Assembly: GCF_901447155.2 (NCBI RefSeq)
Contig: NZ_LR588418.1
Span: forward strand, 1 to 64,000
Origin: Peptoniphilus catoniae
Lineage (GTDB): Bacteria; Bacillota; Clostridia; Tissierellales; Peptoniphilaceae
Length of the DNA: 64,000 bases
Direction of reading: 5' to 3'
Part shown: piece after piece, positions 41,683 to 44,280 of the stretch
Position numbering within the stretch: position 1 is the first letter of the stretch
Layout of the letters: each line of letters opens with the position of its first letter
The notes under the pieces: generated by a model
Database searches by the model: none
What the model saw: only the letters and a program-made list of their open reading frames with translations
Told to the model about the DNA's origin: nothing
Translations under genes and position numbers: made by a program

Positions 41683-41709
41683 GCCCTTTTTTAACATCCC
41701 CACACCCCC

Positions 41710-42240
41710 AGTCATTTCGACCGAACGAAGTGAGCGGAGAAATCTCCACCCCACCCCCAGTCATTTCGACCGAGCGCTTTATATACCCCAGTCATCTTGA
41801 GCGAGCGCAGCGAGTCGAAAGATCTCTCTTTCCAGTCATTTCCACTGGAGCGAATGAAATGAGCGAAACGGAGAAATCTCTCTTTTTATTGTGAGATCTC
41901 TCCATGCTTTCCCTTAGTCGAGATGACAGACTTAAAAAAGTCCGCTCCCTTAGTCGAGATGACAGACTTCAAAATCCTCAATTAATATGATGAATCATTT
42001 AAAACCTTTATATCCAAACAACCCAAAAGCGTTTTAAGGGGTAAGAAGGGGGAGCGCGAGGGGGACGATAGGGAGAATCGCAACTCCCTTAGTCCCCCTC
42101 GTATAAAAACAATTAAATATAATAAAAAAAGAGAGATCTCTCCATGCGTTCGTTACACTCACTTAGTCGAAATGACAGGCTTAAAAAAGTCCGCTCCCTT
42201 AGTCGAGGTGACGGTCTTTATAATCCTTCGGTCGAGATAA
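41710..42240. repeat. REP-like repeat array downstream of S-layer gene
   Basis: P-type units at about 41710-41747, 41759-41785 (partial), 41790-41830 and 41836-41882; Q-type units at about 41890-41970 and 42131-42235. Between the Q units lies copy C of the structured unit. The apparent 93-codon ORF across 42144-42425 reads through repeat sequence and is not a gene. Confidence 0.85.
41979..42130 (+). repeat. Structured repeat unit, copy C (internally deleted)
   Basis: Matches copies A/B at both ends, including the closing stem CGAGGGGGAC (42057-42066) / GTCCCCCTCG (42092-42101), but about 100 bp holding the two inner hairpins are gone; GGGAG/CTCCC forms a small inner stem instead. Confidence 0.8.
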
Positions 42241-42266
42241 CAGGATCCCACACCAAAAAAGAACAC

Positions 42267-42295
42267 TTGTTTTATTTCCTCTCTTATATTATAAT
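42267..42295 (+). promoter_or_regulatory. Promoter of sigma-amidase cassette
   Basis: TTGTTT (42267-42272), 17 bp, TATAAT (42290-42295). An inverted repeat AAGAAC-ATAA-GTTCTT (42301-42316) lies right at the predicted RNA start and could be an operator. Confidence 0.65.
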
Positions 42296-42340
42296 CTTAA
42301 AAGAACATAAGTTCTTAATTTATATAAAGGAGGTTTTAAA

Positions 42341-42892
42341 ATGGACTACAAGGACTTTAATTCGCTTTTGGATAGGTGTCTTAATGGGGACAATGAGGCC
42401 AGGCTTGATTTGCTTAATGCTTTGACTCCTCTTATTGCTTCTTCTATTAAGTCTTATTGTCCTATTTGGCAGGAGTATGAGGATTTATTTCAGGACGGGG
42501 TTTTGCTGGTGCTGGAGTGTCTTGAAATTTATAATCCTTCTAAGGGAAGGTTTTTAAATTTTGTGAAGAATTATTTAAGGTTTTATTTTCTTGATACTTT
42601 TAAATATCTTATTGTTGGAGAGTATTTTGAGGATATTGACGGAAAGGAGGATTTTGCTAATTTTTTAAGGGATACTGCTAATGTTGAGGAGGAGGTTTTG
42701 TCAAGAATGGACTCTGATGATTTGAAAAGGGCTCTTGGTCTTTTGACTAAAAGGCAAAGGGATGTAATTGTCATGTATTATTTTCTTGATATGAGACTTG
42801 ATAGGATTGGCGAGGCTCTTGACATTAAAAGGTGGACTGTTGTTAATACTAAGAGGAGGGCTATTGAAATTTTAAGGGGGTTTTTATGTTAG
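42341..42892 (+). CDS. Sigma-70-family RNA polymerase sigma factor
   Basis: 183 residues. Region 2 spans about 25-90 (SYCPIWQEYEDLFQDGVLLVLECLEIYNPSKGRFLNFVKNYLRFYFLDTF), region 4 about 125-180 (ALGLLTKRQRDVIVMYYFLDMRLDRIGEALDIKRWTVVNTKRRAIEILRG). No region 1 or 3 and no anti-sigma gene beside it. It is like the small alternative sigma factors that drive phage, bacteriocin or toxin genes. AAAGGAGGT precedes the ATG. Its end overlaps the amidase gene by 7 nt; it likely controls the cassette or itself. Confidence 0.85.
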   Translation: MDYKDFNSLLDRCLNGDNEARLDLLNALTPLIASSIKSYCPIWQEYEDLFQDGVLLVLECLEIYNPSKGRFLNFVKNYLRFYFLDTFKYLIVGEYFEDIDGKEDFANFLRDTANVEEEVLSRMDSDDLKRALGLLTKRQRDVIVMYYFLDMRLDRIGEALDIKRWTVVNTKRRAIEILRGFLC

Positions 42893-43356
42893 TTAATAAG
42901 CTGCCTATTGGCTTTAATTTTTCTAAAAGGGCTTCTGAGCCTAGGTTTATCGTGGTTCATGATACGGGTAATCCTGCAAGGGGTGCTGATGCACAGGCGC
43001 ATTTCAGGTATTTTAACGGTGGCTATAGAGGGGCTTCGGCTCATTATTTTGTTGATGATAAGGAAATTGTTGAAACTGTTGAGGTGTCAAGGTCTGCTTG
43101 GCATTGTGGCGACGGCAGGGGCAAGTACGGCATTTGGAATTATAATTCTATCGGAGTTGAGCTTTGTATTAATGAGGATGGTGATTGGGAGAAGACCAAG
43201 GCTAATGCTCTTGTTTTAATTAGATTTTTGTGCAGGTTTTATAAAATCAGCAAGTCTAATGTTGTAAGGCATTATGATGCAAGTAGAAAGATCTGCCCGG
43301 GGAGGATGTCAAAGGACAATTGGAAGGAGTGGTGGATTTTTAGGGAAATGATTTAA
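42886..43356 (+). CDS. N-acetylmuramoyl-L-alanine amidase (endolysin-like)
   Basis: 156-residue single Amidase_2 (T7-lysozyme/PGRP fold) domain that cuts the amide between muramic acid and the stem peptide. Zinc ligands are His in FIVVHDTGN (near residue 24), His in VVRHYDAS and Cys in KICPG. GASAHYFVDDKEIVETV and NYNSIGVELCIN are typical. There is no signal peptide and no wall-binding domain, so it would need a holin or lysis to reach the wall, as phage endolysins do. Overlaps the sigma gene. Confidence 0.92.
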   Translation: MLVNKLPIGFNFSKRASEPRFIVVHDTGNPARGADAQAHFRYFNGGYRGASAHYFVDDKEIVETVEVSRSAWHCGDGRGKYGIWNYNSIGVELCINEDGDWEKTKANALVLIRFLCRFYKISKSNVVRHYDASRKICPGRMSKDNWKEWWIFREMI

Positions 43357-43403
43357 TAGCAACTTAGGGATATTTTTTCTATATATATAGTGGAGGTGAT
43401 AAT

Positions 43404-43628
43404 ATGGCATATACTGATAGACTTGACAAGGTTACTTTAAAAATCGGCATTGTTAACGGCACCAATAAGAATGGAGAGACTATTGTTTCTTATAAGTCTT
43501 TTAAAAGTGTAAACCCGACTTGCAGCAGCGATGTTTTGGCTGAGGGTGCTAAACAAATTGCGGCTCTTTTTCCGAGTCAAATGGCAGATATGAAAAAGGT
43601 TGTAGAGTATAGTTTAATTAATGGTTAA
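43404..43628 (+). CDS. DUF1659 family small protein
   Basis: 74 residues; the pattern DKVTLKIGIVNGTNKNGETIVSYKSFKSVNP matches DUF1659, a small Bacillota family of unknown function nearly always found next to DUF2922 and YvrJ genes. No signal peptide or membrane helix. GTGGAGGTGATA precedes the ATG. Third gene of the cassette. Confidence 0.82.
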   Translation: MAYTDRLDKVTLKIGIVNGTNKNGETIVSYKSFKSVNPTCSSDVLAEGAKQIAALFPSQMADMKKVVEYSLING

Positions 43629-43653
43629 TGATTAATAGTTAAGGAGGTGTATT

Positions 43654-43872
43654 ATGGGTAAAAAAACTTTGGAGCTTAATTTTCTTGATGAGAATGATAA
43701 GTCTTTAAGATTTTCCATTGCCAACCCTAAGGAAGGGATTAACAAGGCGCAGCTTGTGGGTATTGAAGACTATATTGTTAAGAATGAAATGTTTGTAGGT
43801 CCCAGCGGAAAGCTAAAAGGTTTCGGTACTGCAAAGTACAGAGAAGTTACAGAAACTGATTTATTGGCATAG
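43654..43872 (+). CDS. DUF2922 family small protein
   Basis: 72 residues, KKTLELNFLDENDKSLRFSIANPKEGINKAQLVGIEDYIVKNEMF: the DUF2922 pattern, unknown function. No export signal. TAAGGAGGTG lies ahead of the ATG. It is 25 nt after DUF1659 and 16 nt before the YvrJ-like gene. Confidence 0.82.
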   Translation: MGKKTLELNFLDENDKSLRFSIANPKEGINKAQLVGIEDYIVKNEMFVGPSGKLKGFGTAKYREVTETDLLA

Positions 43873-43888
43873 TTCGGGAGGTGATTTC

Positions 43889-44041
43889 TTGAATATTAAT
43901 GAACTTTTTGCAAATATTGCAAATATCGGTTTTCCAATTGCCATTTCTTGTTATTTGCTAACGAGGCTTGAGGGGAAAATGTCTGATCTTTCTAATTGCA
44001 TAAATGAACTTAATAGAAATATTGAGAAATTTATCAACTGA
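43889..44041 (+). CDS. YvrJ-like small membrane protein (50 aa)
   Basis: A 50-codon ORF with TTG start, 6 nt after CGGGAGGTG. It reads MNINELFANIANIGFPIAIS... One hydrophobic segment (about residues 12-26, GFPIAISCYLLTRLE) is followed by an amphipathic charged helix (KMSDLSNCINELNRNIEKF). This is the YvrJ family layout and also that of short BhlA/UviB-type holin-like proteins. It could give the leaderless amidase access to the wall (inference). Confidence 0.75.
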   Translation: MNINELFANIANIGFPIAISCYLLTRLEGKMSDLSNCINELNRNIEKFIN

Positions 44042-44057
44042 CACTTATGTGCCGGAT

Positions 44058-44082
44058 TTGGAGCTTAGGCTCTTTTTTTTAT
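44058..44082 (+). terminator. Cassette terminator
   Basis: GAGC-TTAG-GCTC (44061-44072) followed by eight T; short but GC-rich. Confidence 0.75.
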
Positions 44083-44098
44083 GCCCTTTTTTATTTTC

Positions 44099-44280
44099 CA
44101 GTCATTTCCACCGACCAACCCCACACCCCAGTCATTTCGACCGAACGCAGCATCCCACCCTTCCAGTCATTTCGACCGAGCGCCAGCAAGCGGAGAAATC
44201 TCTCTTTTCATACATAGAAATCTCTCTTTTCATACATAGAAATCTCTCTTTTCATACATAGAAACCTCCCTTTTCATAAA
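44099..44280. repeat. REP units and 22-bp tandem repeat
   Basis: P-type fragments at about 44100, 44129 and 44164, then the tail of the last unit is repeated in tandem: a 22-bp unit (AGAAATCTCTCTTTTCATACAT) starts at 44194, 44216 and 44238, with a fourth, degenerate copy from 44260. Together with 44281-44370 this fills the gap before whiA. Confidence 0.88.

Follow-up and report, generated by a model that had tools for sequence, protein, structure and literature searches.

A candidate SOS-gated lysis module around the DUF1659–DUF2922 gene pair of Peptoniphilus catoniae and its relatives

The five-gene unit of Peptoniphilus catoniae

We analysed a window of 64,000 nucleotides (positions 1 to 64,000 of contig NZ_LR588418.1) from Peptoniphilus catoniae, in which five co-directional open reading frames (ORFs) on the + strand (42341–44041) encode a sigma factor, an Amidase_2 enzyme, a DUF1659 protein, a DUF2922 protein and a YvrJ-family peptide (Table 1). 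Each of the five proteins was assigned by Pfam above the family cut-off, which confirms the gene content described in a first-pass annotation of this DNA. The genome consists of 1.73 Mb in 15 contigs and contains a single copy of DUF1659. Among the NCBIfam matches listed for the sigma factor, only the general sigma-70 model was above the cut-off.

Table 1. Features of the DUF1659 locus in the window
Feature	Position	Strand	Basis or remark
LexA-type box 1, GAACACTTGTTT	42261..42272	+	overlaps the -35 element; fits clostridial LexA motifs
Sigma-A-like promoter, TTGTTT-17-TATAAT	42267..42295	+	read from the sequence
LexA-type box 2, GAACATAAGTTC	42303..42314	+	7 nt downstream of the -10 element; exact GAACN4GTTC
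Sigma-70 family sigma factor, regions 2 and 4, 183 aa	42341..42892	+	Pfam Sigma70_r2 7.5e-7, Sigma70_r4 4.2e-8; TIGR02937 1.3e-20
Amidase_2 endolysin-type enzyme, 156 aa	42886..43356	+	Pfam 2.3e-25
Candidate promoter of the dedicated sigma factor, TAGCAACTT-N14-TATATA	43357..43385	+	pattern match
DUF1659 protein, 74 aa	43404..43628	+	Pfam 1.2e-11
DUF2922 protein, 72 aa	43654..43872	+	Pfam 8.8e-16
YvrJ-family holin-like peptide, 50 aa, TTG start	43889..44041	+	Pfam 1.1e-14
Terminator-like hairpin followed by a T run	44060..44073	+	terminator scan

The sigma and amidase genes overlap by 7 bases. The promoter ahead of the sigma gene is missing from the promoter scan list because its -35 element matches at three of six positions. 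Regarding the promoter and terminator of its own that had been ascribed to the unit, the promoter is readable and the hairpin with its T run is present, but such hairpins are no commoner here than in shuffled sequences (4 found versus 3.8 expected).

The Amidase_2 domain fills residues 17–140 of the 156 residues of the enzyme and thus leaves no room for a wall-binding domain; the protein is also leaderless by eye, so that both absences noted earlier hold. The nearest solved chain is XlyA (3hmb, E-value 5.7e-30), and the motifs VVHDTG and HYDASRKIC, which presumably have metal-ligand roles, are retained. The YvrJ peptide contains a single hydrophobic stretch (best 17-mer from residue 7, mean 1.42, with every third residue sampled) and a charged tail. 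Both DUF proteins are leaderless by eye, and their AlphaFold2 models have the same order of elements, strand-strand-helix-strand (mean predicted local distance difference test scores of 86.2 for DUF1659 and 89.5 for DUF2922). Both models are confident. Sequence profiles showed no homology, and a fold comparison of the models yielded no significant match. The isoelectric points (pI) of the two proteins in the window are 8.8 and 6.2, respectively, and the family medians are 5.3 (DUF1659, n = 198) and 4.8 (DUF2922, n = 194).

A constant gene pair with exchangeable neighbours

DUF1659 was found in 195 of the 398 genomes of a phylum sample, and DUF2922 in 56 of the 245 genomes of a class sample. 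The loci surveyed were the best-scoring matches listed and not a random draw, and the counts ignore relatedness among loci. Two of the 129 loci fetched were dropped, one being the second locus of one genome (L049) and the other lacking DUF1659 by profile (L288). The remaining 127 loci represent 126 distinct ones, as L245 and L030 turned out to be one site, which lacks DUF2922, YvrJ and hydrolase, and loci L002–L031 cover approximately 1.5 kb per side. The gene run around DUF1659 includes DUF2922 in 125 of the 127 loci and YvrJ in 95, the latter being a slight undercount because L034 and L060 do have YvrJ. A sigma gene is present in 16 runs, a ComK-like gene in 40 and a hydrolase gene in 40 (Amidase_2 in 35 and M15 in 5). 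In a distance control with 80 loci of at least 9 kb, 27 Amidase_2 and M15 genes were located within 2 kb (320 kb in total) versus 2 beyond 3 kb (341 kb); the corresponding numbers are 59 versus 0 for YvrJ, 23 versus 4 for ComK-like genes and 8 versus 3 for sigma genes.

The same five genes in the same order as in the window are found in another genus of the same family (L222, genome G634), and the arrangement is therefore not due to chance. In genome G504 (L219), the five genes are ordered DUF1659-DUF2922-YvrJ-sigma-amidase. At two other loci of the family (L220 and L221), part of the set was not found, and DUF2922 was unmatched in two of six further genomes of the family. The first-pass annotation had asked whether a sigma factor and an amidase stand beside the trio in other genomes and had named their absence as a point that would speak against it; sigma factor, amidase and trio do co-occur beyond the window genome, and this objection falls away. 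However, sigma and hydrolase genes are rarely found together. In a set of 80 named loci (L084–L163), which were retrieved via YvrJ and thus contain it by construction, the 66 loci with DUF2922 have a sigma gene only (28), a hydrolase gene only (18) or neither (20), and none has both. In the phylum survey, both are present at 1 of 126 loci with DUF2922. The five-gene set is therefore a lineage variant.

At six loci, a known holin family is present beside the DUF1659–DUF2922 pair, and YvrJ was not seen in the gene run. These holins are Phage_holin_4_1, which we take to be the TcdE family, in L045 (9e-40), L230 (1.1e-38) and L282 (6.6e-38), Holin_BhlA in L227 (3e-36) and L238 (7.6e-31), and Phage_holin_Dp1 in an Aerococcus tenax locus (9.5e-30). 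The holin gene precedes the pair in L227, L230 and L282 and follows it in the other three. The gene order is holin, M15, DUF1659, DUF2922 and sigma in L230, and sigma, DUF1659, DUF2922, a 94-aa protein, holin and a CHAP protein in A. tenax. The wall enzyme is also variable: Amidase_2, M15_3, Amidase_3 (L067; 2 of the 117 neighbours scanned), M15_4/VanY (L340) and, by annotation, CHAP proteins occur beside the pair. The DUF1659–DUF2922 pair is thus the constant part of the module, around which the regulator, the holin and the wall enzyme vary.

YvrJ relatives were also found in 12 viral contigs. In two of them (L072 and L079), the genes after YvrJ encode a membrane-type protein (by eye) of 118 or 113 aa, another small protein and an Amidase_2 protein, and a peptidase M23 match just below the cut-off lies two genes past YvrJ in L076; the remaining nine have no such enzyme by profile. 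The YvrJ of the window matches a PHROG holin weakly (E-value 0.0043), and the YvrJ profile bears a weak resemblance to Holin_BhlA (probability 58, E-value 1e-4; probability 1.1 for the reversed control); in the window unit there is no Pfam match to Holin_BhlA, and YvrJ is present instead. YvrJ and Amidase_2 share one unit in the window, and the identification of YvrJ as a holin rests on context. The earlier description of YvrJ as holin-like is supported by the six replacement loci and two of the 12 viral contigs and, weakly, by its sequence. DUF2922 had no match in the phage collection or the viral contigs with the queries used, and DUF1659 had none in the phage collection in one search. Four other viral contigs (L073, L075, L077 and L078) encode a membrane-type protein of approximately 105 aa after YvrJ, alike by eye, which is perhaps a second holin or an anti-holin; the post-YvrJ proteins of L072 and L077 were scanned, and no Pfam family was above the cut-off.

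Several variants of the gene run were observed. A protein of approximately 75 aa with CxxC pairs (family F7) is encoded between DUF2922 and YvrJ in L005, L008, L018, L031, L040, L047 and L050; this family was detected by profile in 14 of the 127 runs, and for the one member scanned no Pfam family reached the cut-off. Genome G172 contains a tandem second DUF1659–DUF2922 pair (L226:4779–5697), the second DUF2922 being below the cut-off. In Clostridium species and Hathewaya (L131, L132, L146 and L148–L150), YvrJ occurs without DUF1659 and DUF2922 and follows a protein of approximately 200 aa; the four of these proteins that were read are alike and DUF1836-like by eye.

LexA-type boxes and regulators

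The sigma promoter of the window is flanked by two LexA-type boxes (Table 1). Both fit the LexA motifs GAACnnnnGTTT and GAACnnnnGTTC given for clostridia (PMC4234289). The exact pattern GAACN4GTTC occurs at 3 sites in the 1.73-Mb genome, versus 46 sites for a reversed control pattern, and the remaining two fall within ORFs (524 and 461 aa). The genome encodes LexA (E-value 4e-22). One box with one mismatch and five with two mismatches were also found in a 118-base stretch upstream of the lexA gene of P. catoniae (L308:1334–1451). Among the relatives, an exact box is present at the sigma gene in L219 and L230, and boxes with one mismatch are present in L222. In Tissierella-like loci (L095, L102, L123, L140, L153 and others), two palindromes of approximately 6–8 and 14 bases lie within 170 bases upstream of the sigma gene; by eye, their letters vary between species and their symmetry is kept.

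The commoner regulator gene of the survey encodes a protein of approximately 200 aa (family F3) that is ComK-like by profile comparison (probability 94.7, E-value 1.3e-8; reversed control 0.6). A Pfam-recognised ComK gene also precedes DUF1659 on Geobacillus and Peribacillus plasmids. Exact GAACN4GTTC is present upstream of 32 of 74 ComK-like genes and ranks first among 256 gapped palindromes (the next being found at 5), and the clostridial LexA consensus fits upstream of 51 of the 74 genes versus 4 of 322 control genes. The trigger of the module thus seems to be LexA and the SOS response, with a ComK-like factor as the commoner regulator elsewhere.

A candidate target of the sigma factor of the window lies ahead of DUF1659. 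Genome-wide there is a single match to TAGCAACTT-N14-TATATA, although the pattern was written from this same site. AATAGCAACTT is kept before DUF1659 in L222, and the holin and DUF1659 operons of L230 have GGCATGTTTT and GTRTAAC in common. The sigma factor therefore probably reads the promoter ahead of DUF1659, these motifs being suggestive of such a link. The YvrJ gene is in the same cluster as the sigma gene, and the promoter upstream of DUF1659 is a candidate.

Interpretation and comparison with known systems

In wiring and parts, the module resembles the UviA-UviB-Bcn5 system of the Clostridium perfringens plasmids pIP404 and pBCNF5603. That system is described as SOS-induced (PMC4459074, PMC9527704); its regulatory region contains a putative LexA site, and its components are a dedicated sigma factor (UviA), the holin UviB, an amidase and a product that lacks a signal peptide. 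The window likewise has a LexA-type site in the regulatory region by sequence match, a sigma factor and an adjoining amidase. However, its five ORFs are all assigned to other families than that of the Bcn5-type bacteriocin, whose place is occupied by DUF1659 and DUF2922. The holin of the plasmid system is BhlA, which is found in the relatives L227 and L238, whereas the window has YvrJ. There, the LexA site is assigned to the bcn gene and not, as here, to the sigma gene. In addition, many relatives of the module use a ComK-like factor, and the module is chromosomal and widespread. The module thus appears to work in the manner of UviA-UviB-Bcn5 but is not a member of that system, given the missing bacteriocin and a holin of another family. 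The likeness to UviA-UviB drawn in the first-pass annotation accordingly extends to the LexA-type site and the amidase but not to a BhlA holin or a Bcn5-type gene.

The TcdR/TcdE-type loci of large clostridial toxins combine a sigma factor, a holin and an endolysin or its remnant (PMC9527704, PMC4885068). The module too combines a sigma factor, a holin or holin-like protein and an endolysin, and three relatives carry Phage_holin_4_1; unlike those loci, its unit contains no toxin gene, and LexA boxes are present at its regulator. In Bacillus subtilis, SigO-RsoA transcribes yvrJ (PMC8103513). A dedicated sigma factor controls yvrJ there; in the window, a sigma gene and YvrJ share one cluster. 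However, SigO-RsoA is a sigma factor split into two proteins and also serves oxdC, whereas the sigma factor of the window combines regions 2 and 4 in a single 183-aa protein and is encoded alongside an amidase, DUF1659 and DUF2922. XlyA of PBSX, the structure nearest to the amidase, serves a phage-tail-like particle, but no tail genes were seen at 38–48 kb of the window.

From these features, we infer the following course of events. In growing cells, LexA bound to both boxes would silence the sigma promoter. After DNA damage, LexA would be cleaved and the sigma factor made, together with the amidase via the overlap of their genes. The sigma factor would then act on the promoter of DUF1659-DUF2922-YvrJ just downstream. 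YvrJ would serve as a one-helix holin in the membrane, through which the leaderless amidase would reach the wall, and the cell would open. DUF1659 and DUF2922 would most likely be the released proteins. The role of the LexA-controlled sigma factor would fall, in many relatives, to a ComK-like protein whose gene has a LexA box. We assign a probability of approximately 0.6 to this account as a whole, in which the module is an SOS-gated lysis or permeabilization device with the DUF1659–DUF2922 pair as its likely payload. Lysis is suggested because hydrolase genes are concentrated near the pair and because XlyA is the solved chain closest to the enzyme of the window. The pair may be the payload because it persists as its regulator, its holin and its wall enzyme vary, because DUF2922 was unmatched in the phage records and viral contigs and because, between the window and L222, identity is 32% for DUF1659 and 35% for DUF2922 versus 70% for the amidase and 60% for YvrJ. 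The sigma-gated, lysis-type release first proposed is thus supported in part: it agrees with the hydrolase and holin context but needs revision in its regulatory part, since sigma and hydrolase genes rarely stand together and the trigger seems to be LexA. A more specific version is put forward tentatively, as possible rather than probable: DUF1659 and DUF2922 could form a released two-protein factor that is neither phage nor bacteriocin, in a chromosomal SOS-gated suicide release of many Clostridia and their relatives, in which either type of regulator, ComK-like or private sigma, would be under LexA, and holin and endolysin would be exchangeable.

Several findings weigh against an SOS-gated lysis module with this payload. 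No Amidase_2 or M15 gene is present in the same run at 87 of the 127 loci (86 of the 126 distinct ones), two of which have Amidase_3. Among the matches listed, a Pfam holin was found in 2 of the 32 YvrJ-less runs (L045 and L282); since the neighbour scan covered 117 of 249 unlabelled neighbours and, among the matches listed, 25 of 84 families, rarer holin families may be hidden in such runs. By profile, 10 of the 12 viral contigs have no Amidase_2 near YvrJ. Over 304 amidase pairs, the small proteins are just slightly less conserved (50 and 51%) than the amidase (60%), and where the locus has a sigma or ComK-type regulator, their average conservation is no lower than that of the regulator. No immunity gene was seen. 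PHROGs give weak relatives of DUF1659 and DUF2922 (E-value about 0.001), and uncharacterized phage proteins matched the DUF2922 model without significance (E-value 0.013 and up); some phages may therefore carry kin of the pair. Among sigma genes, 4 of 54 have a LexA box, and among DUF1659 genes, 17 of 202. None is present at the ComK-like or DUF1659 promoters of five plasmid loci or at the Aerococcus sigma gene, so that the six plasmid-borne loci examined have no box at the regulator or before DUF1659; the exact site of L244 is inside an integrase gene, and the one-mismatch sites of L241 and L242 are inside DUF1659. With the counts at the ComK-like genes taken into account, the predicted SOS link is therefore not universal, although it is strong where the regulator is a chromosomal ComK-like gene or a sigma gene of the window's type.

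The small proteins might instead be cytoplasmic partners of the holin or the regulator, acting in timing or as an anti-holin, in a module that lyses the cell or releases DNA, perhaps in connection with competence. The number of runs with a ComK-like gene and the Pfam ComK genes on the Geobacillus and Peribacillus plasmids are consistent with such a role, as are the presence of the pair where no wall enzyme is near, its leaderless proteins with one order of elements in their models, and the basic DUF1659 of the window. A holin-specific partner, however, would not be expected to persist across holin families, and the overall acidity of the two families argues against DNA binding; we consider this explanation somewhat unlikely. 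It is also unlikely, and a little more so, that the trio is an envelope-stress set under sigma or ComK control that acts without lysis, with YvrJ as a small membrane protein and the amidase as a wall-remodelling enzyme. The transcription of yvrJ by SigO-RsoA in B. subtilis (PMC8103513), the frequency of YvrJ in the family of G357 (read as Bacillus-like; 59 of 61 genomes), the many loci without a wall enzyme and the polysaccharide deacetylases among the scanned neighbours (6 of 117) would fit such a set, but three unrelated holin families replacing YvrJ, leaderless enzymes of phage type and LexA boxes are more in keeping with lysis. It is very improbable that the unit is a prophage lysis cassette in decay: the amidase matches phage endolysin families and XlyA, and YvrJ has its viral relatives, but no phage structural genes were read by eye among the ORFs at 38–48 kb (SLH protein, WhiA, HPr and DnaE), DUF1659 is present in about half of the phylum sample, and the same five genes are ordered alike in another genus.

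What is new here is the presence of LexA boxes at the sigma or, mostly, the ComK-like regulator, the exchangeable holin and wall enzyme around a constant pair, and the proximity of YvrJ relatives to endolysin genes in two of 12 viral contigs. By title and the start of the abstract, no link between LexA, ComK and a holin was found in the open-licence literature, nor anything devoted to DUF1659, DUF2922 or YvrJ. Two families without a known function gain a testable setting of DNA damage, lysis and release. If an SOS-gated lysis module is indeed encoded, many anaerobes would ordinarily carry a programmed, DNA-damage-triggered means of opening the cell on their chromosomes, beyond prophages and bacteriocin plasmids, and a ComK-like factor could be wired to SOS and lysis.

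Two features of the surroundings were also observed. In P. catoniae, the module is bracketed by dispersed repeats of the CCAGTCATTTCGACCGA and AGAAATCTCTCTTTT types, with copies at 41699–41890 and 44096–44278. In L088, L091 and L098, it lies upstream of a gene of approximately 740 aa, which is RecD2-like helicase by eye, and a downstream gene of this size, judged by length only, is present in many of L093–L126; this recurrent neighbour suggests a conserved chromosomal place.

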